A stretch of 64,000 nt of DNA, taken from Spirochaetae bacterium HGW-Spirochaetae-1 (lineage in GTDB: Bacteria; Spirochaetota; UBA4802; UBA5550). Positions 7,557-24,180 of this stretch are shown piece after piece. Below the pieces are notes generated by a model. It did not search any database and had not been told where the DNA came from. It was given only the letters and a program-made list of their open reading frames with translations. The stretch covers positions 186,001 to 250,000 of the forward strand of contig PGXY01000005.1 in the NCBI GenBank assembly GCA_002839375.1, read 5' to 3'. Within the stretch, counting starts at the first letter, position 1; the number at the start of each line of letters is the position of its first letter. The translations under genes were made by a program, and so were the position numbers.

Positions 7557-8195
7557 GTGTCAGAGCAAAAGAATAAAGCCAGGAACCCGGTACAAAAACG
7601 GGGAATAGAAACAAAAAAGAAGATCATTGAAGCCGCAGAGGCCCTCTTTGCTGAAAAGGGGTATCATAAAACAAATGCGCTGGAGATAGCAGCCCGGGCC
7701 GAGGTGGCAACCGGCAGCTTTTACGGCTATTTCAATAATAAAAAAGAAGTCCTTGTTGAAGTCATCAGGAATTTTTACGCCCATGCGTCAGAAAAGGTTC
7801 TCAATAGATACCAGGCCCAGGTTCAGGGCACCACTGCCGACAACTACCGGGAAGGGAAAAAATTAATCCATTTCATGATAGAAGCGCTCTATACAGCCCA
7901 TGAAGTCAATCCCGCTCTCCACCGGGAGCTCCTTGCCATGGTATTGCTGGACAAGGAAATCGAGCACATAAACCGCGAAGAGGAACAAAAGGTCATTACC
8001 GCCATGACATCATTATTGAACGCATACAGCGGGCATGTCCGCGTGAAGGATGTTGAGGCTGCTGCATTTCTTCTTTACCGGGTCAGTGAGGAAATCATTC
8101 ACCGCATCAGGATACTGGGAACTGATTTTGACAACAGGCGATTGATCACGGAGCTGGAGGATATGATCTGCCGGTATCTTCTCGAGGAGGGGTAA
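7557..8195 (+). CDS. TetR/AcrR family transcriptional regulator
   Basis: A 212-residue regulator. The N-terminal helix-turn-helix runs over about residues 18-60 (KKKIIEAAEALFAEKGY, then EIAARAEVATGSFYGYFNNKKEVL). The C-terminal all-helical ligand domain is divergent. Translation starts at GTG 7557 after AGGAG. It is expected to be a ligand-released repressor. The two long palindromes at 5408 and 7475 flank the neighbouring hydrolase genes and are the natural target candidates, but their arm sequences differ, so control of both by this one protein is not proven. Confidence 0.9.
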   Translation: MSEQKNKARNPVQKRGIETKKKIIEAAEALFAEKGYHKTNALEIAARAEVATGSFYGYFNNKKEVLVEVIRNFYAHASEKVLNRYQAQVQGTTADNYREGKKLIHFMIEALYTAHEVNPALHRELLAMVLLDKEIEHINREEEQKVITAMTSLLNAYSGHVRVKDVEAAAFLLYRVSEEIIHRIRILGTDFDNRRLITELEDMICRYLLEEG

Positions 8196-10220: not shown

Positions 10221-11960
10221 CTAACCGTGCATACCTTTCCAGAGGCCGTTAAAAAAACTCCTGGCATTGGCCCCTAAAACCCTGTTATTGTAACCGCCTT
10301 CCTGTACTACAAGAGTTGGAAGATCCAGGCGTCCAATGACCAGCCCGTTGTTGTAAAAGTCCTTTCTGAGGAGATTCCAGGTCCCGGTTGGATCCCCCTT
10401 GGCAGTATCAAGCCCGAAGGCAAGAACAAGAAAATCAGGTGAATATCGCTTTATTCTTGCAATAGCTTTTTTCAGCGTTTTTAAATATTCGCTGCCGGTG
10501 ATATTTTCCCGTAGCGGATAATTTATATTATATCCCTCCCCGGCGCCCTTCCCTTTTTCGTCCCTGAATCCGGAAAAATGGGGATATTCAAAATCAGGGT
10601 CCGCATGGATCGAAACCGTCAGGACATACTGCTTTGCATAAAAAATATCCTGCTGGCCGTTACCATGGTGATAATCCACATCGAGAATAGCCACCTTTCC
10701 GTAATAACTCAGATAATTCGCAGCGATAGCCGTAGAGTTAAAATAACAGAAACCACCGAAGGAATTTCTATCCGCGTGATGTCCCGGGGGACGAACGAGC
10801 GCATAGGCGATCCTGTTGCCTTCCAGTAATTCAAGGGCTCCAGTGAGAGCGCAATCAACGGCGCCCCGGGCCGCCAGGTAGGCGTTCCGGTTAATGGGAC
10901 TGTAAACATCGATACAGTAATACCCTGCCCGCGCTGCCAGTTTTCGCGGCGGCTTAACGGATTTCCGGATGGGGAATACGTCGGGATAGAGTGTCTTTCC
11001 CGGCTCCAAAGCCATGGTAACCTGTTTAAAATAGTTTATAAAATCTGAATCATGCACTTCTTGCAGATACCTTTCAGGAAACTTTTTAATTTTAACTCTC
11101 CGGAAAAGTTGCGTTTTCTCAAGTTCACGAAGGATACTCTTTATTCTGACAGGAGATTCAACATATCCCCGCTCGCGTATATGATGAATTTCGTGCCCAT
11201 CATTGTGAATAAGAGAAATTTTGTTATCCTCTGAAAGGAGACGAATTTTATAGTCGGGCTCCTGTTTCATATAACGGGGCTCCCGAATGGACACCGGATC
11301 ATCCTGTATTGACCGAATAACCGACTGAATATCGCGGCGGCCGCATGAGGGGTCGTATTTCCGCTCAAGAATGGAACGTATAATCAGCTTTGCCTCGGCC
11401 GCCGGAAGCCCGCTTTTTCGATCAAGATTATCATAGAGGAGAAAATATGGGTTGTGATAGTGATTTCTGCTGTTTGATTCGTATGATGTATTGATTATTG
11501 GACGGGCCCCGTGCCGCTCATAAAACCTGATTCTTGCCCTGTTTTGTCTCAGTATCTTTTTATCTCTGAAAACTCTGCCGTCATCGGTCATGCATTCGAT
11601 AAAAATACCCGCCGACTTCAGGTTCAGAGCCTCTTCCCTTACGCGTTCATAGAGCGCGCTGCCGGCTCCGCCCCCCTGCTTTTCCTGTGCCAGGGCCATG
11701 AGGTCAATAAAACAATAGTTCAGGTCCGGCGCATAAGACATTTGAATAAACCCCTTCATGTATCCCCGGGTATCTTCAGCCACAAAAAACATATACTTCA
11801 TTTTTTTATGATAAGGATCTCTGAAGAACCTGCGTATATCTTCGAAAGATTCTTCCGTCATATCGGCAATCTGGTTACGGGTGATCTCAACAATGCGGTC
11901 AATCGCCTTTTTGTTTATCGGAAGAAGGTCGTCATATATTCTGCGGATACTGAAGCTCAT
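10221..11960 (-). CDS. GNAT acetyltransferase-histone deacetylase-family fusion
   Basis: A 579-residue protein with two opposing domains. Residues about 1-165 are a GNAT N-acetyltransferase (FIDLMALAQEKQGGGAGSALYERVREEA is the acetyl-CoA loop, followed by RIRFYERHGARPI). Residues about 235-575 are a zinc-dependent deacetylase of the histone deacetylase/acetylpolyamine amidohydrolase family. Its motifs are RPPGHHADRNSFGGFCYFN, LDVDYHHGNG with zinc ligands Asp and His, and FGLDTAKGD. The substrate could be an acetylated protein, polyamine or small amine. It is read from one leftward gene with no sign of frameshift. Nothing nearby reveals the substrate. Confidence 0.88.
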   Translation of the reverse strand: MSFSIRRIYDDLLPINKKAIDRIVEITRNQIADMTEESFEDIRRFFRDPYHKKMKYMFFVAEDTRGYMKGFIQMSYAPDLNYCFIDLMALAQEKQGGGAGSALYERVREEALNLKSAGIFIECMTDDGRVFRDKKILRQNRARIRFYERHGARPIINTSYESNSRNHYHNPYFLLYDNLDRKSGLPAAEAKLIIRSILERKYDPSCGRRDIQSVIRSIQDDPVSIREPRYMKQEPDYKIRLLSEDNKISLIHNDGHEIHHIRERGYVESPVRIKSILRELEKTQLFRRVKIKKFPERYLQEVHDSDFINYFKQVTMALEPGKTLYPDVFPIRKSVKPPRKLAARAGYYCIDVYSPINRNAYLAARGAVDCALTGALELLEGNRIAYALVRPPGHHADRNSFGGFCYFNSTAIAANYLSYYGKVAILDVDYHHGNGQQDIFYAKQYVLTVSIHADPDFEYPHFSGFRDEKGKGAGEGYNINYPLRENITGSEYLKTLKKAIARIKRYSPDFLVLAFGLDTAKGDPTGTWNLLRKDFYNNGLVIGRLDLPTLVVQEGGYNNRVLGANARSFFNGLWKGMHG

Positions 11961-13860: not shown

Positions 13861-14067
13861 CTACTTCTTCCCGTACCCGATGCCCGACAAGGCATCGTCG
13901 ATCTCCGTTAGAATGGCGGGATCATCAATGGTGGAGGGGACTGAGTATTCCTGGCCGTCGGCTATCTTCCGCATGGTGCCGCGCAGGATCTTCCCGGAAC
14001 GCGTCTTGGTAAGGCGCTTCACGATAAGCGACTGCTTATAGTAGGCCAGTGCGCCGATCTTCTGCAT
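13861..14067 (-). pseudogene. C-terminal remnant of a propionyl-CoA-synthetase-type gene
   Basis: The 68 codons from an ATG at 14067 match the last residues of the intact synthetase at 22285-24180: VKRLTKTRSGKILRGTMRK, then KIADGQEYSVPSTIDDP and DALSGIGYGKK at the end. The catalytic lysine motif TRSGKILRG is present but the whole AMP-binding body is missing. The frame continues leftward only some 30 codons to a stop. At nucleotide level, 13964-14009 is identical to 22388-22433. The remnant differs elsewhere (ALAYYKQSLI against AVAAFKQAMI), so the copies have had time to diverge or come from sister genes. Confidence 0.82.
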
Positions 14068-14442
14068 GACTTTCTCATCTCGCCGAATCTGGTGGACAGG
14101 AATTTTTGTAGATTATCGGCTATGGCGCGAACTTCAGCGGTTTGTCCGCCCTTCTCGCCATGATTAACACATGCGCCCCTGGGATCACGACGGCAACTAT
14201 CGATAATGGTTTTAGTGCAGGATACGCTGCTGCTGTAATAAACAGCAATTCAAAAAGCAGAAACAGTAAGAACTATTAAAGATGAAAATCGTTTTATACT
14301 GTTTCTCCGTGATCAGCAGGAATAAGTTCCCAGGCTCACTCATTCACTACAGCATTGATTCCGAACAATTTACACCGAAGCTGAAAAACCTGACCCCGAG
14401 GATATAATTTTTTCTTGACTTTTTTATTAAATGTATTACTTT
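14068..14442. other. Intergenic region, possible decayed coding sequence
   Basis: No intact gene is seen. On the minus strand around 14095-14215 one frame reads RDPRGACVNHGEKGGQTAEV and on to a stretch IADNLQKFLSTRFGEM, and another reads GAHVLIMARRADK, which faintly recalls a short-chain dehydrogenase nucleotide-binding segment. Both are too short to assign. The region ends in the TetR operator and promoter. Confidence 0.3.
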
Positions 14443-14460
14443 GTAACCAATCGTTCACTT
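14443..14460. promoter_or_regulatory. TetR operator copy 1
   Basis: GTAACCAATCGTTCACTT, the reverse complement of AAGTGAACGATTGGTTAC, lies 14 bp before the start codon of the TetR gene at 14475. Seventeen of 18 bases match copy 2. The half-sites GTGAAC and GGTTAC form an imperfect dyad. Position implies autorepression. Confidence 0.78.
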
Positions 14461-14474
14461 GTGAGAAATTTACC

Positions 14475-15173
14475 ATGGCAGAAAAAACACGCATAAACGC
14501 TGAAGAACGCAGGCAAAGAATCATTGAGGCCGCAAAACCACTCTTCGCCGATTTCGGATTTAACGGCACGTCGATCCGTGATATTGCAAAAGCGGCTGAT
14601 GTATCAAATGCCCTGCTCTACAAGCATTTTCCCAGCAAGGAAGCCATGTATGAAGAGATATTAAGTTATACCGACTATATAATTCCTAAATTAAAAAGAA
14701 AGCTTGAGGAACTTGAGCCTTCAACGCAGACACTGGTTTTTTTGAGCTTTGCCTTTTTCAGGTTTATCCTGTTCGAAGCCCAAATGGTCAACCAGGATCA
14801 GAAAAGGCATGAACGGCTTCTTTTTTACAGTCTCCTTGAGAACCTGAACTATGCCCGTAAAACCTTACGCAGAATACATGATGACTTTGAAAAGATGATA
14901 AAGGATAACTTTATCGCAGCGGAAGAGAGCGGTGATATTATCAAATCAGAGAATAATGTAAAAAACCGTTTCTGGTTTATGCACCATCTTGCCATGGGCG
15001 TTAATCTCTGTCATGTTTCAGGCGAACCAGCCTTTAACTATGATACTTCCTACAGGGAACTTGTTGAAGACGCCGTTTGCTTCGTGCTGCGCGGTATTGG
15101 TCTGACTGACCGGGCAATAAAAAAGTACTACAAGCCGGAAAAACTTGAGCAGCAGATAAATTCTATTTTTTAA
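14475..15173 (+). CDS. TetR/AcrR family regulator of the BKACE cassette
   Basis: A 232-residue regulator. The helix-turn-helix covers about residues 10-55 (RRQRIIEAAKPLFADFGFNG, then IRDIAKAADVSNALLYKHFPSKEAMY). The C-terminal helical domain is the probable ligand site. The ATG at 14475 is chosen because the operator ends 14 bp upstream; upstream in-frame codons would run through that operator. The same 18-bp element recurs before the next gene and before the M24 operon, so this protein very probably represses itself and the whole cassette until a pathway metabolite releases it. Confidence 0.9.
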   Translation: MAEKTRINAEERRQRIIEAAKPLFADFGFNGTSIRDIAKAADVSNALLYKHFPSKEAMYEEILSYTDYIIPKLKRKLEELEPSTQTLVFLSFAFFRFILFEAQMVNQDQKRHERLLFYSLLENLNYARKTLRRIHDDFEKMIKDNFIAAEESGDIIKSENNVKNRFWFMHHLAMGVNLCHVSGEPAFNYDTSYRELVEDAVCFVLRGIGLTDRAIKKYYKPEKLEQQINSIF

Positions 15174-15192
15174 CCATATTTTTTTACGCATT

Positions 15193-15210
15193 AAGTGAAC
15201 GTTTGGTTAC
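15193..15210. promoter_or_regulatory. TetR operator copy 2
   Basis: AAGTGAACGTTTGGTTAC lies 20 bp after the TetR stop codon and 39 bp before the MBL start codon. It is inverted relative to copy 1. Confidence 0.78.
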
Positions 15211-15249
15211 CACTTAAGTCATACATTGCACATATGTCAGGAGAGAATC

Positions 15250-16329
15250 ATGTTTTCTAAAGTCAGTTTAAAAGGATTATTCGTTACCGGGTTAGTGATT
15301 GCATTTCTGGCGATTTTTACGGCTTTTATTCTGCAGGATCAAATTCTTGAAGGTCTGATAAAAAGCCGGCTGGATCGCTGTGATGAAAGCGTGCTGTCAG
15401 ACCCGGGGATTCATGTTATCATGGTGGGAACGGGAACTCCCAACTATGATCCTGTTCGAAATGCACCCTGTGTCGCCGTCATTGCCGGCGGCGAGTTTTT
15501 ACTCTTCGATACGGGCGACGGTTGCGCCAGGACACTGGATTCCATGAATCTGCCTTTCTTAAAAATTAATACGGTGTTCCTTACCCATTATCATTCCGAT
15601 CACATCAATGGATTGATTAATTTCATCAGCCACACATGGATCCATGGCAGAAAAAAGGAACTTCATGTTTACGGTCCTGTCGGAGTTAAAAGCATTACTG
15701 ACGGCGCCATGGCCTTTCTAAAAGAAGACATAGGCATCCGGGCAAATCCCCAAGCGCTGTTTCCTCTCGACAGGAAACTTGTCGTGGTACAGCCCCATGA
15801 ATTTTCTTATCCTGGCGATGGATCGCCCCTTGTTGTATGGAAAAAAAACGGTCTGATTGTCACGGCATTTAAAAATGACCATGCCGATGTGAAAATATCC
15901 TGTGGCTACCGGATAGAATACGCGAACCGGAGTGTTGTCATCAGCGGTGATACCGTGAAAAGCGACTATGTCATTCAAAACTCAAGAGATACGGACATCC
16001 TGATTCATGAGGCGGTTAACCTCGATATGATAAAACGGATTATTGCAGTTTTGAATACAACTGCAACGACCGATGCAGACTGGACCGCTGAACATTTATC
16101 TCAGGTTTCCAGACATCACTGCAGCACGCGGGATGTGGCGAAGGTTGCGGCGGAAGCAAATGTAAAAAGGCTGCTCCTCTATCATATCGGGCCGGGCATT
16201 CCGGACAACTGGTTCTTTGAAAAGATGTATCTCAAAGACATGAGAGGAATATACGATGGGCCTGTGAGCATTACTACAGACAGGGATCGTTTTTACCTTG
16301 AGCCGGGCAGAGTATCTCATGATATATAA
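15250..16329 (+). CDS. Membrane-anchored MBL-fold hydrolase (RNase Z-like)
   Basis: A 359-residue protein. A single N-terminal hydrophobic helix (about residues 8-30, GLFVTGLVIAFLAIFTAFIL) acts as a signal anchor. The MBL domain has FDTGDG, the metal motif THYHSDH, SGDT and a C-terminal LLYHIGPG histidine. It resembles RNase Z-like and lactonase-like MBL proteins that act on small molecules outside the cytoplasm. AGGAGA before ATG 15250 fixes the start. It has its own copy of the TetR operator, so it belongs to the cassette and may open a lactone or ester precursor of the pathway substrate (inference). Confidence 0.82.
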   Translation: MFSKVSLKGLFVTGLVIAFLAIFTAFILQDQILEGLIKSRLDRCDESVLSDPGIHVIMVGTGTPNYDPVRNAPCVAVIAGGEFLLFDTGDGCARTLDSMNLPFLKINTVFLTHYHSDHINGLINFISHTWIHGRKKELHVYGPVGVKSITDGAMAFLKEDIGIRANPQALFPLDRKLVVVQPHEFSYPGDGSPLVVWKKNGLIVTAFKNDHADVKISCGYRIEYANRSVVISGDTVKSDYVIQNSRDTDILIHEAVNLDMIKRIIAVLNTTATTDADWTAEHLSQVSRHHCSTRDVAKVAAEANVKRLLLYHIGPGIPDNWFFEKMYLKDMRGIYDGPVSITTDRDRFYLEPGRVSHDI

Positions 16330-16359
16330 AACCATTTATTTCCAGTTTTTTTATTCATT

Positions 16360-16377
16360 AAGTGACCATTTGGTTAC
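16360..16377. promoter_or_regulatory. TetR operator copy 3
   Basis: AAGTGACCATTTGGTTAC differs from copy 2 at two positions and has the same orientation. It lies 35 bp before the M24 gene start and 24 bp ahead of its AAGGAGG ribosome site. Confidence 0.76.
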
Positions 16378-16412
16378 CTGTTAAATACAACAAGTCTGAC
16401 AAGGAGGAAAAC

Positions 16413-17657
16413 ATGGCATTAGGAAAGTATGCAGTAGACTATGAACAGCGGGTCAATTATGACCGGCTGCGCAGGGAAAGGCTGGACAGGGCAAAGGAGC
16501 AGTTAAACAAGTCAGGGGCAGGAGCCATTATAACCTGGGATGAGGCTAATATCCGTTACCTTACATCCTACTATGTAACGACCCCCATGCGCCCCGCAGA
16601 GATGCAGTGTGTATTGCTTCCCCGCAATGGAGAACCGATCCTCTTCGGCGGCGGCACCCCCTCGGAAACAGAGCGTCGCATGCCCTGGCTGCAGGGACGT
16701 GTACAGCCGGGATTACCGCCTTTTAAAGTAGTAGCCCATAACGAGGATCACATCGCGGTTCAGGTCACTGTTGACATTATCGGCAAACTTCTTGCGGAGT
16801 ACGGTCTGGAAAAGGAGCCCCTTGCGATAGATGGCACGGTCTGCGGTGTTATCCTGGAAAGGGCATTCAAAAAACGCGGCATTGAGGTCATTCACGGAAA
16901 GCCCATCCTGGATGCGGCCCGGGTGATCAAGACACACGATGAGATTGAGCTCATGCGGATCACCTGCCAGAATTCCGAATCAGCCTTTGCTGCAATTGCT
17001 GAGGCTATCAGGCCGGGCATTCGCGAATGCGACCTGGTGGGTATCGGAGTAAAAGCGCTCTACCAGGAAGGGGCCGATCACACGGAAGACCTGGTCTGCT
17101 GCTCCGGGTATAATACCAATCCCTATGGCTGGTCGTTCACAGATAAACCGCTGCGTCCGGGAGACCTGGTTTATATTGATGTGGATGGCAACTCCTATCA
17201 GGGCTACAAGTCCTGTGTTTACCGGACTTTCTGTGTAGGAAAAGCAACCCAGGAGCAGAAGGAACTCTACCAGGAATGCTACGAGATGATCTATGGTGCC
17301 ATAAGCGTGATAAAAGAAGGCGCCACCAACCATGATGTCGCATTAAAATGGCCCGATTCACCGCAGTACTGGGGATTCAAGGACTGGGCTGAAGTAATGC
17401 CCTATGCAGTGGGTCATGGCCTGGGCCTCACACTTCACGACCCTCCGGGAATCAGCCGCTACATGATGGCAGTGGGCCTGCCTCCCACAGAGTTGAAGGT
17501 GGGGATGGTAATCGCGCTTGAAACCTATGCCGGTCATAAAGGAGGCAAACACGGCGTGCGTCTGGAAGAAGATGTTCTGGTTACGAAAGACGGTTATGAA
17601 GTTTTAACCCGCTGGCCCGTGAAGGAATTAATGGAGTGCTGGCTGCCCTATAATTAA
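16413..17657 (+). CDS. M24-family creatinase/prolidase-fold enzyme
   Basis: A 414-residue protein with a creatinase N-terminal domain (about 1-170) and a pita-bread catalytic domain (about 175-410). Metal-ligand positions of the family are mostly kept: Asp256 and Asp258 in YIDVDGNSYQGY, His335 in GHGLGL, Glu370 in ALETYAG and Glu385/386 in RLEEDV. The usual second aspartate (SDxTRT in aminopeptidases) is replaced: here it reads KSCVYRT with Cys268. This argues against an ordinary Xaa-Pro peptidase. It rather suggests a non-peptidase member, as in creatinase or the DMSP lyase DddP branch, possibly cleaving a C-N or C-S bond of a small onium compound (inference). It starts after AAGGAGG and heads the four-to-five-gene operon. 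Confidence 0.85.
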   Translation: MALGKYAVDYEQRVNYDRLRRERLDRAKEQLNKSGAGAIITWDEANIRYLTSYYVTTPMRPAEMQCVLLPRNGEPILFGGGTPSETERRMPWLQGRVQPGLPPFKVVAHNEDHIAVQVTVDIIGKLLAEYGLEKEPLAIDGTVCGVILERAFKKRGIEVIHGKPILDAARVIKTHDEIELMRITCQNSESAFAAIAEAIRPGIRECDLVGIGVKALYQEGADHTEDLVCCSGYNTNPYGWSFTDKPLRPGDLVYIDVDGNSYQGYKSCVYRTFCVGKATQEQKELYQECYEMIYGAISVIKEGATNHDVALKWPDSPQYWGFKDWAEVMPYAVGHGLGLTLHDPPGISRYMMAVGLPPTELKVGMVIALETYAGHKGGKHGVRLEEDVLVTKDGYEVLTRWPVKELMECWLPYN

Positions 17658-17690
17658 AGTTTAACATAAAACAAAACCGGAGATATATAC

Positions 17691-18632
17691 ATGAAAATTA
17701 TAAAAATAAATACCATTCTTGTTCTGGGGTCGGGAGTCATGGGACATGGCATCGCACAGATCTTTGCCCAACATGGTTACTCTGTGCGCCTTGTTGATAC
17801 TGACAAGGCCATGCTTGACAGGGCCCTTGATCTTATCAAAGGCAGTCTCGAAGTCTTAGCCGAAGAAGGTGTTATAGAGGAAAAAAGTATTACCGGGACA
17901 ATCGGCCGCATTGAAATGACAACTGATCTTGAAGGCGCGGCAAAGGGCATTGACATGGTAATAGAAGCTGTTCCTGAAGTTGAGGATATCAAAAAGAAAG
18001 TATATGCCCGCCTGAATGATATCTGCGACAGTGATGTAATATTCGCCACCAATACATCGGGACTTGATGTCTTCAGTTTTGCCGGTGTTTCCAATCCGTC
18101 ACGACTTCTGGCGACCCATTTTTTTGCGCCGGCCCAACTTATACCGCTCGTAGAGGTATGTCCCGGGCCGGAGACAGACCCGCACATTACGAATACCGTT
18201 GTCACAATGTTACAGAATATGGGGAAAGAACCCGTTGTATTGAAAGGCTTTGTCCCCTCCTTTATTGTAAACCGCATTCAGAACTACATTGCCATGTCGG
18301 TATTCGAGATACTCAATAATGGATGGGCAACGCCGGAACAAATAGACAGGGCCGTCAAAGCGAGTCTTGGCGTGCGTCTCCCCATTGTGGGCGTAGTCCA
18401 GACAATGGACTTCACCGGTCTTGACCTGGTCAATGATATCATGAAAAGCAAGGGGATGACCATGCCAATAATTGATGACAAGGTGAAGGATAACAGGCTG
18501 GGAGTCAAGACATCCCGGGGATTCTATGATTATAAGGGAAAGAGCGAAAAAGAAATATGTAAAACAAGAGATCAATATTATCTGAAAATGATAGGTCATC
18601 TCCGTACTATTGACGCCTTCAAACCAATATAA
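17691..18632 (+). CDS. 3-hydroxyacyl-CoA dehydrogenase family protein
   Basis: A 313-residue NAD-dependent dehydrogenase. The dinucleotide-binding motif is GSGVMGHGIAQ (residues 13-23). The catalytic histidine is His143 in ATHFFAPAQLIPLVEV, followed by FVPSFIVNRIQ and the C-terminal dimerisation domain with GFYDYKG. Relatives oxidise 3-hydroxybutyryl-CoA or free 3-hydroxy acids such as L-carnitine and L-gulonate. It lies 33 bp after the M24 gene and 18 bp before the BKACE gene. A dehydrogenase making a 3-keto acid directly ahead of a beta-keto acid cleavage enzyme is a coherent pathway step; a free acid as substrate is therefore as likely as a CoA ester. Confidence 0.88.
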   Translation: MKIIKINTILVLGSGVMGHGIAQIFAQHGYSVRLVDTDKAMLDRALDLIKGSLEVLAEEGVIEEKSITGTIGRIEMTTDLEGAAKGIDMVIEAVPEVEDIKKKVYARLNDICDSDVIFATNTSGLDVFSFAGVSNPSRLLATHFFAPAQLIPLVEVCPGPETDPHITNTVVTMLQNMGKEPVVLKGFVPSFIVNRIQNYIAMSVFEILNNGWATPEQIDRAVKASLGVRLPIVGVVQTMDFTGLDLVNDIMKSKGMTMPIIDDKVKDNRLGVKTSRGFYDYKGKSEKEICKTRDQYYLKMIGHLRTIDAFKPI

Positions 18633-18649
18633 CACAAGTGAGGAACCAT

Positions 18650-19513
18650 ATGAAAAACAAAGTAATAATAACAGCGGCAATGTCCGGCGCCGGAACATTC
18701 AAGCAGAACAATCCCGCTGTCCCCTATGCTCCCGAGGAATTTGCCGCTGAAGCCGAGAAGGCTTATAAAGCCGGGGCTGCCATGGTCCATGTTCACGCAA
18801 GGGGGGATAATGGCATTGCAACCCATGAGATAGACCGCATAAAGGCTACCCATGATGCTATTAAGGAAAGAATTCCTGAACTGATTGTCAATTTAAGTTC
18901 CGCAGTAGGGCCCGCCGCCACTCCGGAACAGCGTATTGAGCAGATAATTGCAATCAAGCCGGAAATGGCATCCCTAAACACGAATACAATGAATTTCGCC
19001 GTGGCTGACAGAAAGGGAGGTAATGTCCTGGTTGAATTCATCTTCACGAATACCTTTGCCATGTTCAGGGATTTCGGCAAGGCGATGGAAGAGAATGGTG
19101 TTAAACCGGAGATAGAAGTCTATGACATCGGGGGCCTTGATAATTTCTTACTGATTAGAAAACAGGGAATCTTCACAGAACCATATAATGTCAATTTCGT
19201 ATGGAGTGTTGCCGGGGGGCAGGCTTTCCGGCCCGATGCTTTTGTCACCATGGTGAATTCATTGCCCGGCAATGCCAATTTTACCGCGTGTGGCATAGGA
19301 CATGACCAGTTTTTTGCAGGCATGCAGTCATGTATTCTCGGCGGGCATATCCGTGTCGGCCTTGAGGACAATGTCAGAATGCCCAATGGAGAGCTGGCCA
19401 AAGGCAGCTATGAACAGGTTGAATGGGCTGCTGAAATTGTCAGGTCCCTGGGAAAAGAGCCTGCTACCCCTGATGAAGCCAGGGAGATCATGGGACTTGC
19501 AATACAGGGATAG
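18650..19513 (+). CDS. Beta-keto acid cleavage enzyme (BKACE, DUF849)
   Basis: A 287-residue TIM-barrel enzyme. The N-terminal ITAAMSGAGT, the zinc motif HVHAR (His47, His49) and the C-terminal HIRVGLEDN are diagnostic of the DUF849/BKACE family. These enzymes condense a beta-keto acid with acetyl-CoA and split it to acetoacetate and a new CoA ester. Known substrates include 3-keto-5-aminohexanoate and dehydrocarnitine. The start at ATG 18650 is preferred over GTG 18638 because GTGAGGA then serves as ribosome site. Together with the upstream dehydrogenase it defines the pathway; substrate specificity needs comparison with characterised active-site groups. Confidence 0.9.
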   Translation: MKNKVIITAAMSGAGTFKQNNPAVPYAPEEFAAEAEKAYKAGAAMVHVHARGDNGIATHEIDRIKATHDAIKERIPELIVNLSSAVGPAATPEQRIEQIIAIKPEMASLNTNTMNFAVADRKGGNVLVEFIFTNTFAMFRDFGKAMEENGVKPEIEVYDIGGLDNFLLIRKQGIFTEPYNVNFVWSVAGGQAFRPDAFVTMVNSLPGNANFTACGIGHDQFFAGMQSCILGGHIRVGLEDNVRMPNGELAKGSYEQVEWAAEIVRSLGKEPATPDEAREIMGLAIQG

Positions 19514-19547
19514 ACAGAAAGTCTCTGTCTGTAATTCCTTTACCCTT

Positions 19548-19587
19548 CAGGATCGGAATGAGTTTTCTTTTACTCATCTCGATCCTG
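19548..19587 (+). promoter_or_regulatory. Intra-operon stem-loop
   Basis: CAGGATCGGAATGAGT and ACTCATCTCGATCCTG pair at 14 of 16 positions around an 8-nt loop, in the 133-bp gap between the BKACE and DUF362 genes. There is no following T-run. It may mark partial termination or mRNA processing within the operon. Confidence 0.5.
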
Positions 19588-19646
19588 AATATCCCGGCAA
19601 TCATTACACTTTGCTGAGGAACTGATTTTTTGAAAGGATAAAAGAT

Positions 19647-20981
19647 ATGACAACTAAATCAAAAGTAGCTGTAGTTAAGGGTGACAACCCTCAGAAAATG
19701 ATAGAAAACGCATTGTCCCTTCTGGGAGATATTACAGAAATAATACCTCTGGGTAGAAAGATTATCCTGAAGCCCAATGCCGGGCATGCAAGCGGTCCGG
19801 AAACCGCGGTCAACACCTCCCCTGAATTTTTAAGAGGAGTAATACGTGTCGTAAAGAAAACCAATCCCACAGAAATCATTCTTGCTGAGTCGTCCGCTGT
19901 CGGTGAGAAGACCATGAAATGCTTTAAAATAAGCGGCTTAATGAAAGTAGCGGAGGAGGAAGGTGTTGACCGAATCGTTGATCTCAAGTCCTACAAACCC
20001 CTGATTCGAAAGCCCATTGATATTCCCAGCAGTGAGATCGATTATGTTGACCTGCCCGATATTCTGTTGAATGATGAATACTTTTTCATCAACCTGCCGA
20101 TTTTCAAATCTCATACCAGCATGGTGTATAGTTGTGCAATGAAGAACCTTAAGGGGATTGTACAGGACCGCCATCATATTATCATGCATGCCACCAACCT
20201 GGTGGGCTCACTGGCCGATCTGAACGAGTTGATCCAGCCGGACCTGACTATAGTTGATATGATCAATCCCCAGGAAGGATTTGGCCCCCATGCAGGCACA
20301 CCGGTTCATGTAGGCTGTGTACTGGCAGGAACAGATACCCTTGCAATCGACGTTGTGGCATGCAAGATTGCCAGTCTTCCTTTGGATCGAATAGAGTATT
20401 TCCCTGACATGGCCGGGCGCAATATAGGCAATTACAAGGATGAAGATATAGAATTGCTGGGTGAGCCGATTGAAAATGTAAAGAAAAAATTGTACCTGCC
20501 CTACCTTGAAGGATTCAAGATATTCCCCGAATACAAGGTGCATGTGGGTAAAGCCTGCAGTTCCTGCCAGGGCCTGGTTTCCTTTAATATCGTCAGGTTG
20601 AAATCACTGGGGAAGTATGAAGAGTTATCGGGAAGCCAGATAATTACCGGCACACTGCGTGACAAGAAAGTTCCCGCAGAATTCGATTTAAATAAACCTA
20701 TATTCCTTATGGGACAGTGCGGCATTAAAAACCAGAAATTCCTGGAGGAGGCAGGAGCTAAGAAAATATATCGGGTCTTCGGATGCCCTCCAGGAGAGCC
20801 TACCCTCTCATGGACAATGATGGATCGGAAAGAATGGGATACGAGAGCAATAAACAAAAAGAACCTTTCTCTATTGGATAAATTGAGGCTTGCACCCATG
20901 GTAGTGAAAGTAAGAGCCAGGATGGCTTTTGAAACCAAACTATTTATGAGGTGGCTGGAAAACCAGAAGAAAGCTGAATGA
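19647..20981 (+). CDS. DUF362 family protein
   Basis: A 444-residue protein with the DUF362 signature: early ILKPNAGHASGPETAVNTSPE, the middle KSHTSMVYSCAMKNLKGI and a late VHVGKACSSCQGL with a CxxC pair. DUF362 proteins often accompany iron-sulfur proteins and act as cluster- or redox-linked proteins, but their biochemical role is mostly undefined. It lies 33 bp before the polyferredoxin gene, so the two may act together to supply or dispose of electrons for the pathway. Conserved Cys and Gly positions (FGCPPGEP) occur near the C-terminus. Confidence 0.8.
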   Translation: MTTKSKVAVVKGDNPQKMIENALSLLGDITEIIPLGRKIILKPNAGHASGPETAVNTSPEFLRGVIRVVKKTNPTEIILAESSAVGEKTMKCFKISGLMKVAEEEGVDRIVDLKSYKPLIRKPIDIPSSEIDYVDLPDILLNDEYFFINLPIFKSHTSMVYSCAMKNLKGIVQDRHHIIMHATNLVGSLADLNELIQPDLTIVDMINPQEGFGPHAGTPVHVGCVLAGTDTLAIDVVACKIASLPLDRIEYFPDMAGRNIGNYKDEDIELLGEPIENVKKKLYLPYLEGFKIFPEYKVHVGKACSSCQGLVSFNIVRLKSLGKYEELSGSQIITGTLRDKKVPAEFDLNKPIFLMGQCGIKNQKFLEEAGAKKIYRVFGCPPGEPTLSWTMMDRKEWDTRAINKKNLSLLDKLRLAPMVVKVRARMAFETKLFMRWLENQKKAE

Positions 20982-21014
20982 TACTATAAAAAGAAATACA
21001 TAAGGAGTGACATT

Positions 21015-22109
21015 ATGGATAGAGAATACATATACATAGCAAAAAAGTTGCTAATTAATCCTTTAAGGGTTCCAAGGCACAATGGAGAATTTACAGCTTC
21101 TTTTATAGAGTATCTGAAATTGCTCTATACACCGGAAGAAGCAGGCATTGTAAAACATCTGTCGCCACTACCTGTTTTCACTTCCACTGAAGAGTTGGCA
21201 CATAAAACGGGCCTTGAAGAAAAAAAAGTCACGGAAATTCTTGCTTCTCTTCTCAAAAGGAATCGCCTGACAGGTATGGGCAACATGTTTGCCCTGTCGC
21301 CAATACCGATTTTGTTAAACATTCATCAATTCCATAATGAAACAGAAGCGGATGACCTGAAAGCGGCAGCGCTCTACCTGGATTTTTTTATAGAGAAGAC
21401 ATACAGCAGGTACTATGAGACATCAGAAAAAGGCACTCCCATTTTCAGAGCAATTCCTGTCGGCAAAACAATTGAAACAAAGGAGAGAGTTCTCTCATAT
21501 GAAGAGGCTGAACAATACATCAGATCAATGAAACATGACAACTTTTGCCTGGTTCCTTGCCCCTGCAGAAACCGTATGGAGAAGCTGGGAATTCGTGAAT
21601 GCAAGAATAAATTCGATATAGCATACTGCCTGATGCTCGGTATTTCAGCAATACATTTTCAGTCCATAGGCATGGGACAGAAGGTGACCAAGAACGAGGC
21701 GGTCAGCTATGTGAAGGAGATGATTGACAAAGGTCTTATCTGCAATACCGACAACGCCATGGCAAAGAATTCCATAATCTGCCTATGCTGTGGATGCTGC
21801 TGTTCACAGGTTCGTGGAAGAACCCGGTGGAATAACATGGACGCTGTTGCTCCCTCTAATTTTATTCCCCGGTCCGATGATAACTGCCTTGCCTGTGGAA
21901 AATGTGAAAAGCGCTGCATGCTGGGCGCCATTACCATTGATAAGACGGAAAAGAAAGTTATCATTGAAGAAGAGAAATGTATTGGTTGCGGTGTTTGCGC
22001 TGCCGGCTGTACCAGGAATGCCCTGAAACTGGTAAGACAAAGAGAAAATGAGCCCTTTGCCACATCGGGCAAAATGTTGAAAGTAATCGATTCGGAGAAT
22101 TTATTATAA
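21015..22109 (+). CDS. Polyferredoxin with N-terminal winged-helix-like domain
   Basis: A 364-residue iron-sulfur protein. Residues about 35-100 look like a winged helix (STEELAHKTGLEEKKVTEILASLLKRNRL). A central cysteine-rich segment has CPCRNRMEKLG and CLCCGCCCSQVRG. Two 4Fe-4S ferredoxin motifs end the protein: CLACGKCEKRC and CIGCGVCAAGC. The same layout occurs in uncharacterised anaerobic redox proteins. As the last gene of the TetR-controlled operon it probably carries electrons to or from the DUF362 protein. No ribosome site problem is seen; AAGGAGTG precedes the ATG. Confidence 0.8.
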   Translation: MDREYIYIAKKLLINPLRVPRHNGEFTASFIEYLKLLYTPEEAGIVKHLSPLPVFTSTEELAHKTGLEEKKVTEILASLLKRNRLTGMGNMFALSPIPILLNIHQFHNETEADDLKAAALYLDFFIEKTYSRYYETSEKGTPIFRAIPVGKTIETKERVLSYEEAEQYIRSMKHDNFCLVPCPCRNRMEKLGIRECKNKFDIAYCLMLGISAIHFQSIGMGQKVTKNEAVSYVKEMIDKGLICNTDNAMAKNSIICLCCGCCCSQVRGRTRWNNMDAVAPSNFIPRSDDNCLACGKCEKRCMLGAITIDKTEKKVIIEEEKCIGCGVCAAGCTRNALKLVRQRENEPFATSGKMLKVIDSENLL

Positions 22110-22284: not shown

Positions 22285-24180
22285 TTACTTCTTCCCGTAC
22301 CCGATGCCCGACAACGCATCGCCGATCTCGGTAAGAATAACCGGGTCGTCGATGGTTGAAGGAACCGTGTACTCCTGGCCATCGGCGATCTTCCGCATGG
22401 TGCCGCGCAGGATCTTCCCGGAACGCGTCTTGGGAAGGCGCTTCACTATCATGGCCTGCTTAAAGGCCGCCACGGCGCCTATCCGGTCGCGCACCATCTG
22501 CACCAGGTCCTTCAGAATATCATCATGACTCTTCGTCACCCCTTCCTTCAGGACAACGAACCCCATGGGAAGCTGGCCCTTGAAATCATCGGCAACACCG
22601 ATGACGGCGCACTCCGCCACATCGGGATGCGTGGAAATGACCTCCTCCATGGCGCCCGTGGAAAGGCGGTGACCCGCCACATTGATGACATCATCGACGC
22701 GTCCCATGACATAGACATAGTCGTCCTTGTCGATATATCCGCCGTCTCCCGTGAAATAATAGCCAGGGAAGGGGTCCATGTACGACTCCTTGTACTTCTG
22801 ATCGTTCTGCCACAGCGTGGGAAGCGTACCGGGAGGCAATGGCAGCTTTATGACAACCAGCCCCTCGGTGCCCGCCGGAAGTTTTTTACCGTCGGCATCG
22901 ATGATCTCAACGCTGTAACCGGGAACGGCCTTGGTGGGCGAGCCCGGTTTTATTTCGAACTGCTCCAGTCCCATGCAGTTGGCGGCGATTGGCCAGCCCG
23001 TCTCGGTCTGCCACCAGTGGTCCACAACGGGCCGCTGCAGCATATCGCTGGCCCAGTGATAGGTGTCGGGATCGAGGCGCTCACCGGCAAGAAAGAGGGT
23101 CCTGAAGCAGGAAAGATCATATTTCTTCAGGTATTCGCCGTTGGGGTCTTCTTTTTTTATGGCCCGGAAGGCCGTGGGGGCTGTAAATAAAACCTTTACG
23201 TTATGCTGGTTGATGATTCTCCAGAATGCCCCGGGGTCCGGGGTTCCCACGGGCTTTCCCTCGTAGAGTATGGTGGTGTTCCCGTTCAGGAGCGGCGCGT
23301 ACACGATATAGGAATGTCCCACGACCCAGCCAACGTCGGAAGCGGCCCAGAAGACCTCGCCGGGCTGTACATTGTATATGTTCTTCATACTCCACTTCAA
23401 TGCCACGGCATGGCCGCCGTTATCGCGGACAACGCCTTTGGGCAGACCCGTGGTGCCCGAGGTATAAAGGATATAGAGCGGGTCCGTGGCCTTGACCTGG
23501 ACACAGGGTGCCGGGGATGCCTTTTCCATTGCTTCTGTCCAGTCCAGGTCCCTGCCGGTCGCGAGGGATGCCGTGGCCTGCTCGCGCTGAAGGATGACGC
23601 ATTTCCCCACCTTGTGGGAAGCCAGGCTGATGGCCTTATCAAGGAGCGGCTTGTATTCTATGATCTTCTTGCCTTCGATGCCGCACGAGGCCGAAACAAT
23701 GAGTTTCGGTTTGGCGTCATCTATCCGTATAGCCAGCTCGTTTGGAGCGAATCCACCGAATACGACGGAATGTATGGCGCCGATTCGCGCGCAGGCCAGC
23801 ATGGCCACGGCAGCTTCGGGAACCATGGGCATGTACACAATGACGCGGTCGCCCTTTTCTATCCCCTGGGAACGGAGCACTCCGGCAAAACGCGAGACCA
23901 GGTCCAGCAGTTCCCTGTACGTATATTTTTTGACAGTCCCTGTAACAGGGCTGTCATAGATAATAGCGGTCTGATCGCCGCGGCCCTTTTCCACGTGAAG
24001 ATCAACGGCATTATAACAGGTATTCATCTCACCATCGACAAACCACCGATAAAAGGGAACATTGCTGTCGTCCAGAACCTTCGAATAATTTTTTGTCCAG
24101 ACAATATCTCCGGCAGCCTTTCCCCAGAAAGACCCGGGGTTGCTTATGGACTCTTCATACGCCTTCTGGTATTCTCCCAT
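22285..24180 (-). CDS. prpE: Propionyl-CoA/acetyl-CoA synthetase (PrpE/ACSS3 type)
   Basis: A 631-residue AMP-forming acyl-CoA synthetase, full length for the family. An ACS N-terminal domain is followed by the P-loop YTSGTTGLPKGVVRDNGGH, in which DNGGH is typical of the propionyl-CoA synthetase/ACSS3 branch. Then come WWQTETGWP, YYFTGDGGY and the C-terminal catalytic lysine in TRSGKILRG. It activates acetate, propionate or a similar short acid with ATP and CoA. It is read leftward 85 bp behind a GntR-type regulator and converges on the BKACE operon, for which it could supply or use acyl-CoA. The gene name is by family resemblance only. Confidence 0.87.
   Translation of the reverse strand: MGEYQKAYEESISNPGSFWGKAAGDIVWTKNYSKVLDDSNVPFYRWFVDGEMNTCYNAVDLHVEKGRGDQTAIIYDSPVTGTVKKYTYRELLDLVSRFAGVLRSQGIEKGDRVIVYMPMVPEAAVAMLACARIGAIHSVVFGGFAPNELAIRIDDAKPKLIVSASCGIEGKKIIEYKPLLDKAISLASHKVGKCVILQREQATASLATGRDLDWTEAMEKASPAPCVQVKATDPLYILYTSGTTGLPKGVVRDNGGHAVALKWSMKNIYNVQPGEVFWAASDVGWVVGHSYIVYAPLLNGNTTILYEGKPVGTPDPGAFWRIINQHNVKVLFTAPTAFRAIKKEDPNGEYLKKYDLSCFRTLFLAGERLDPDTYHWASDMLQRPVVDHWWQTETGWPIAANCMGLEQFEIKPGSPTKAVPGYSVEIIDADGKKLPAGTEGLVVIKLPLPPGTLPTLWQNDQKYKESYMDPFPGYYFTGDGGYIDKDDYVYVMGRVDDVINVAGHRLSTGAMEEVISTHPDVAECAVIGVADDFKGQLPMGFVVLKEGVTKSHDDILKDLVQMVRDRIGAVAAFKQAMIVKRLPKTRSGKILRGTMRKIADGQEYTVPSTIDDPVILTEIGDALSGIGYGKK

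Follow-up and report, generated by a model that had tools for sequence, protein, structure and literature searches.

Gene content of the locus

The stretch of DNA analyzed here, 64,000 nucleotides of contig PGXY01000005.1 of Spirochaetae bacterium HGW-Spirochaetae-1 (hereafter the window), carries a group of seven genes, all on the forward strand, accompanied by three copies of one 18-bp element. The first gene (14475–15173) encodes a TetR-family regulator (PF00440, 63 bits) and the second (15250–16329) a metallo-beta-lactamase-fold (MBL) hydrolase with an HxHxDH motif (PF00753, 51 bits), which appears to be membrane-anchored through a hydrophobic N-terminus, as read by eye; its nearest NCBIfam model is GntH, which it matches at 138 bits (cut-off 333). 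An operon of five genes follows, encoding an M24-fold enzyme (16413–17657; PF00557, 140 bits) in which the second metal-ligand Asp is replaced by Cys (codon 17214–17216), a 3-hydroxyacyl-CoA-dehydrogenase-like enzyme (HCDH; 17691–18632; 3HCDH domain) with HFFAP instead of HFFNP, a stand-alone BKACE (DUF849) protein (18650–19513; PF05853, 297 bits), a DUF362 protein of the LarA fold (19647–20981) with His156, Lys166, His181 and the cysteines Cys304-x2-Cys307, Cys358 and Cys380, and a ferredoxin-like protein (21015–22109). The spacing between most of the operon genes is about 20–33 nucleotides; the gap between the BKACE and DUF362 genes is 133 nucleotides long and contains inverted repeats (19510–19589), which might attenuate or stabilize the operon transcript.

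The gene families named in a preceding sequence-only reading of this DNA were found as domains (TetR_N, metallo-beta-lactamase, Peptidase_M24, 3HCDH, BKACE, DUF362 and ferredoxin), but its term “polyferredoxin” proved wrong, the last protein having a single recognized 2x[4Fe-4S] domain at the C-terminus and Cys-rich stretches elsewhere. Its impression that the gene set is unusual holds, as no described pathway with these genes was found in the literature searched, nor was anything relevant on M24 proteins together with DUF362 or on M24 proteins in such clusters.

The 18-bp element as a candidate operator of the TetR-family regulator

The copies of the element had been placed before the TetR gene, the MBL gene and the M24-HCDH-BKACE-DUF362-ferredoxin operon, and all three were located there. 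The element, AAGTGAMCRWTTGGTTAC, occurs at 14443–14460 on the reverse strand (O1, before the TetR gene) and on the forward strand at 15193–15210 (O2, before the MBL gene) and 16360–16377 (O3, before the M24 operon), the ATG codons of the TetR, MBL and M24 genes (at 14475, 15250 and 16413) lying 14–40 bp beyond each copy. All are imperfect dyads, with 8 to 12 of 16 positions symmetric (10 in O1 and 12 in O3, the best of them, GTnACCAnnTGGTnAC), and the 39-nucleotide stretches containing O2 and O3 are 85% identical to each other. By chance, 0.26 matches with up to three mismatches would be expected per window, and none of 100 shuffles gave three. Far from being common genome-wide, the element is confined to these three places: no further copy was found at up to two mismatches in the whole 5.2-Mb genome, and this restriction to the three promoters bears out the idea of a locus-specific TetR regulon.

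Among the 12 other loci found to carry this M24 gene (see below), the regulator closest to the window TetR is that of locus L036 (46% identity, with an almost identical recognition helix); in locus L044 another TetR gene directly precedes the M24 gene. When L036 was scanned with a weight matrix built from the three window sites, the top score in all 21 kb belonged to AAGTGTTCGTTTACTTAC (7602–7619), 34 bp before the homologous tetR, and the probability that the top site would fall within that intergenic stretch (~227 of 21,236 bases) by position alone is about 1%. A consensus search of L036 at three mismatches returned nothing, the diverged site being visible to the weight matrix only, and the matrix gave background scores only in L034, L035, L038, L039, L041, L042, L044 and L045.

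Because the best L036 site lies directly upstream of the homologous tetR, the 18-bp element is taken as the operator of the window TetR, a sequence-based assignment that we consider very probable. An operator at the regulator's own promoter that is conserved together with the regulator, as is expected of a TetR autoregulator, is seen in O1 and the L036 site. By binding the three operators, TetR would control itself, the anchored MBL hydrolase and the five-gene operon, and it is quite probable that the seven genes with their operators constitute a co-regulated catabolic unit.

Distribution and mobility of the M24-DUF362 pair

The scan for M24 loci covered 84,980 species and yielded the 12 other loci, with 66–86% identity, whose hosts include Deltaproteobacteria, Lokiarchaeia, one Stahlbacteria bin and one Thermoleophilia genome, cassette-type genes being spread from bacteria to Asgard archaea. 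A DUF362 gene (41–49% identity) directly follows the M24 gene in 11 of the 12, and in three (L036, L043 and L044) the pair is followed by an HCDH gene (50–55% identical); BKACE, MBL and ferredoxin genes are present in none of them. We conclude with high confidence that the M24-DUF362 pair represents a widely shared operon core, to which an HCDH-type dehydrogenase is sometimes added, and the BKACE, MBL and ferredoxin genes appear to have been added to this core locally. The search for the same gene order and element in other genomes, suggested by the sequence-only reading, thus retrieved the M24-DUF362 pair and the operator-like site of L036, but not the BKACE, MBL and ferredoxin genes, and the description of the locus as a cassette built on BKACE is not supported, BKACE being absent from all 12. 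A pathway common to the M24-DUF362 loci was also looked for and dropped, since their neighbouring genes (URO-D, DHO dehydrogenase, DUF1329, enoyl-CoA hydratase, CoA-transferase and lysine genes) show none.

No close relative of the M24 enzyme was found among 59 related genomes, and each of the two enzyme types, M24 and HCDH, is limited to this one among 393 genomes of the phylum. The M24 and DUF362 trees both nest the Stahlbacteria copy inside Lokiarchaeota (its contig is only 4.6 kb long, and a binning error is possible for that copy), while the DUF362 tree pairs the Thermoleophilia (actinobacterial) copy with a deltaproteobacterial one. Since the gene trees mix phyla, the M24-DUF362 pair apparently moves between them.

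Traces of such an event may be preserved at the borders of the locus. An intact acyl-CoA synthetase gene (22285–24180, reverse strand; PF00501) bounds the cassette on one side, and a truncated acyl-CoA synthetase remnant (13864–14076, reverse strand) lies on the other, encoding 71 amino acids of the C-terminal part, 80% identical to residues 561–631 of the intact enzyme. The remnant and the end of the intact gene, which were also aligned as DNA, are direct repeats. The cassette therefore has a direct repeat on either flank, an arrangement that insertion by recombination would produce, and a likely explanation is that the repeats are an insertion scar.

Insertion beside the acyl-CoA synthetase could also have assembled a mere chance neighbourhood, in which the genes do not serve one pathway. 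Unlike the M24 and HCDH enzymes, the BKACE derives from within the order to which the host belongs, and the arrangement of the genes differs from the M24-DUF362-HCDH order of the relatives, both of which would fit such an origin. We regard it as very improbable, however, with three near-identical operators, occurring nowhere else in the genome, tying the TetR gene, the MBL gene and the operon together, and with the short gaps that separate most of the operon genes.

The M24 enzyme

According to the alignment to prolidases, the metal-site positions of the M24 enzyme are occupied by Asp, Cys, His, Glu and Glu. The Cys at the second Asp position is invariant in 12 aligned sequences and four plasmid relatives, so that the full ligand set of M24 metallopeptidases is lacking in all relatives examined. 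Phaeobacter, Rhodococcus, Streptomyces and Paenarthrobacter carry members of the wider Cys-site family (35–37% identical) on plasmids (L048–L051), and several of these copies belong to catabolic operons that also include genes of the SDR, semialdehyde dehydrogenase and 2-oxoacid-dehydrogenase types. Owing to the Cys-altered site and the plasmid relatives in catabolic operons, the enzyme more likely participates in small-molecule catabolism than acts as an ordinary peptidase; that it cleaves a C-N or C-S bond, as the sequence-only reading proposed, is a conjecture. The first Asp, the His and the two Glu are shared with other proteins of the M24 fold, i.e., the DMSP lyase DddP, the ectoine hydrolase DoeA, creatinase and prolidases. 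In contrast to all of these, the window enzyme has Cys for the second Asp, and its relatives of 66–86% identity are confined to a small group of genomes; it also scores far under the DddP and DoeA cut-offs (600 and 613, respectively). DddP was considered as the nearest functional relative and discarded on account of its score (102 bits against the cut-off of 600) and the missing second Asp.

DUF362 and the LarA fold

The structure of the DUF362 protein was represented by an AlphaFold (AF2) model (pLDDT 80). Foldseek found significant matches of this model to LarA-family structures only (E 4.6e-4), and VIA gave Z 13.5–15.2 to all eleven LarA-family entries listed, the next unrelated structure having 5.7; the superposition extends over 207–222 residues with a root-mean-square deviation of 3.0–3.4, which assigns the model to the LarA fold. 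A search of PDB sequences with the DUF362 profile gave no match. DUF362 and DUF2088/LarA (PF09861) belong to the same Pfam clan, CL0471 (PMC11770544). Judging by the modelled fold, DUF362 is almost certainly homologous to LarA.

In LarA, the roles of a cofactor-anchoring Lys, a nickel-ligand His and catalytic His residues have been described (PMC12611868, PMC11851776). Profile alignment (hhalign) of DUF362 to 23 LarA sequences places His156, Lys166 and His181 on the second catalytic His, the anchor Lys and the Ni-ligand His, respectively, Lys166 and His181 being aligned with Lys180 and His196 of the host's own LarA (Lys183 and His199 in LarA Ip). The spacing of the triad is that of LarA (10 and 15–16 residues), and the triad is invariant in 12 of 12 cassette-type DUF362 sequences and in 26 of 26 others, one of the latter (L112) being the window gene retrieved again; a third subclass, the ferredoxin-containing DUF362 proteins, has a similar H-x9-K ... 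H arrangement at LarA-like spacing, as read by eye.

Thus, DUF362 resembles the LarA family of nickel-pincer 2-hydroxy-acid racemases and epimerases in its fold and in the places of the triad (the second His corresponding to His174 of LarA Lp), but differs in about 10% identity in the structural alignment, in the lack of an aligned His at the position of the first catalytic His of LarA (His108) and in an additional set of cysteines (CxxC, C, C). A single catalytic His is likewise kept in some accepted LarA homologues (PDB 9q3j, 9q3k; PMC12611868), which share the fold as well; they retain the first His, however, with Asn at the second position, whereas DUF362 retains the second and misses the first. 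Cys304, Cys307, Cys358 and Cys380, which are invariant in cassette-type DUF362 sequences, look like an iron-sulfur site. With the LarA fold and the conserved His/Lys/His triad, the view that DUF362 simply moves electrons is superseded. Because of this fold and the three key residues at LarA spacing, the nickel-pincer nucleotide is a candidate cofactor of the window DUF362, a possibility that we consider plausible, albeit somewhat short of probable.

BKACE and HCDH

In an alignment to 2y7d, the BKACE of the window keeps the Zn-binding His pair, the Glu and the catalytic Tyr. It thus shares the fold family and catalytic residues with BKACE/Kce proteins (e.g., the 3-keto-5-aminohexanoate cleavage enzyme), but falls below all specificity cut-offs, with 257 bits against 382 for Kce. 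Gly occupies the position of Kce Glu14. When the enzyme was placed among the characterized specificity groups, as had been proposed, the catalytic residues were accordingly found kept, but no specificity was assigned. Its closest relatives (68–73% identity) occur throughout the host's order, two of them in this genome, and are mostly fusions with ChsH2-like zinc-ribbon/OB domains, to which the stand-alone window protein is sister. As relatives at this identity are present throughout the order, BKACE was probably recruited locally, from a clade of that order. The operons of the relatives examined contain genes for thiolases, SCP2 proteins, enoyl-CoA hydratase, acyl-CoA ligase and CoA-transferase. 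The two paralogues of this genome are encoded in long open reading frames (ORFs; L162:5324-6748 and L163:5011-6438), and that of L162 is fused to a ChsH2-like zinc-ribbon/OB domain and lies within an acyl-CoA operon.

The HCDH retains its His/Glu pair, and the Asn of HFFNP is replaced by Ala or Leu in all four relatives. With carnitine dehydrogenase models the enzyme scored 106 bits against a cut-off of 592 and 97 against 414.

These data bear on a pathway centred on BKACE and resembling that of carnitine, in which HCDH and BKACE would degrade a 3-hydroxy onium or amino acid, with DUF362 and the ferredoxin only carrying electrons. The adjacency of HCDH and BKACE in one operon and the preserved Zn ligands and catalytic Tyr are in line with it, and the IPLVEV motif of HCDH would recall non-CoA hydroxy-acid dehydrogenases. 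Nevertheless, the carnitine-like interpretation comes out as weak and, on the whole, improbable: both proteins score far under the carnitine dehydrogenase and Kce cut-offs, the Kce Glu14 position holds Gly, BKACE is missing from the other M24-DUF362 loci while its relatives belong to acyl-CoA operons, and DUF362 is folded like an enzyme, its putative active site being conserved.

Cofactor supply and the proposed pathway

Taking these results together, we lean towards the view that the locus is a horizontally acquired, TetR-autoregulated catabolic cassette, the conserved core of which is the M24-DUF362 pair. In the pathway proposed, the MBL enzyme would open an ester or lactone precursor, and the M24 enzyme, with its altered Asp/Cys/His/Glu/Glu site, would carry out a cleavage or elimination to give a hydroxy acid. 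On this acid the DUF362 enzyme, having a single catalytic His, would perform proton-coupled hydride chemistry with a cofactor that would most likely be the nickel-pincer nucleotide or a similar compound held by Lys166 and His181, electrons being passed or balanced via its Cys cluster and the ferredoxin. HCDH would then oxidize the 3-hydroxyl, and BKACE would convert the 3-oxo acid and acetyl-CoA to acetoacetate and acyl-CoA. The exact order of these steps is doubtful.

The supply of such a cofactor can be followed through the lar genes. In the host genome larC and larE are adjacent, and LarC was found in 11 of 12 genomes with cassette-type genes. Of 59 genomes, 43 have both DUF362 and LarC, an association with an odds ratio of 21.5 and a p of 0.003 when kinship is left uncorrected. 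Thirteen relatives have LarC while lacking a clear LarA, and by our count from the tables DUF362 is present in 12 of them. In an earlier study, larB, larE and larC were present without larA in about 15% of the genomes analyzed (PMC11796402), and therefore some other protein must take the nickel-pincer cofactor there. DUF362 is a widespread family without known function, and its fold and three LarA key residues make it a concrete candidate for the acceptor. We tentatively suggest that the DUF362 family comprises nickel-pincer enzymes that constitute a second branch next to LarA, have a single catalytic His and in many cases an iron-sulfur site, and would be the missing cofactor acceptors of such genomes; in the mobile catabolic cassette described here, one of them would work alongside the Cys-site M24 enzyme. 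The cassette gives DUF362 a setting, namely this partner and a dedicated regulator, the inducer of which would show what the substrate is.

Several observations weigh against this picture. The profile-profile score of DUF362 to LarA is weak when taken alone (hhalign E 0.1). LarC is common anyway, being over the cut-off in 44 of the 59 relatives, so the 11 of 12 count is not decisive. Triad-bearing DUF362 proteins are encoded in nearly complete genomes with neither LarC nor LarE over the cut-off (G021, G024, G048, G050, G056 and G058), and the triad is therefore no proof of nickel-pincer use; among the control genomes, two have LarC without LarA and DUF362, and one has DUF362 without LarC. The best identity of the window DUF362, which sits on a long branch, is 51%, against 86% between the M24 enzyme and its nearest kin, and with such unequal divergence the two may not have travelled together. 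Finally, none of the tests run points to a substrate.

The genomes that keep the triad but lack LarC and LarE are compatible with a LarA-fold enzyme operating without the nickel-pincer nucleotide, in which a different metal or cofactor would be bound by the Lys and His residues, and the Cys cluster would make the protein an iron-sulfur enzyme or electron carrier. The lack of a clear counterpart of LarA His108 and the ferredoxin domains of some DUF362 proteins speak for the same, and we treat this as a real possibility, though one below an even chance. Against it stand the LarA spacing together with the invariance at all three positions, and the co-occurrence of DUF362 with LarC described above, including the relatives that have no clear LarA.

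Other gene neighbourhoods

The commoner M24-efp-TPR-DUF362 neighbourhood of the related genomes was considered as an equivalent of this cassette and rejected, being a prolidase cluster with canonical metal ligands. In several relatives (L137, L139, around pepQ-efp), a canonical M24 prolidase, efp, a TPR-like protein and a DUF362-ferredoxin gene recur together. Elsewhere in the window, a single ORF on the reverse strand (10221–11960) encodes both a GNAT acetyltransferase domain and a histone-deacetylase-type domain.

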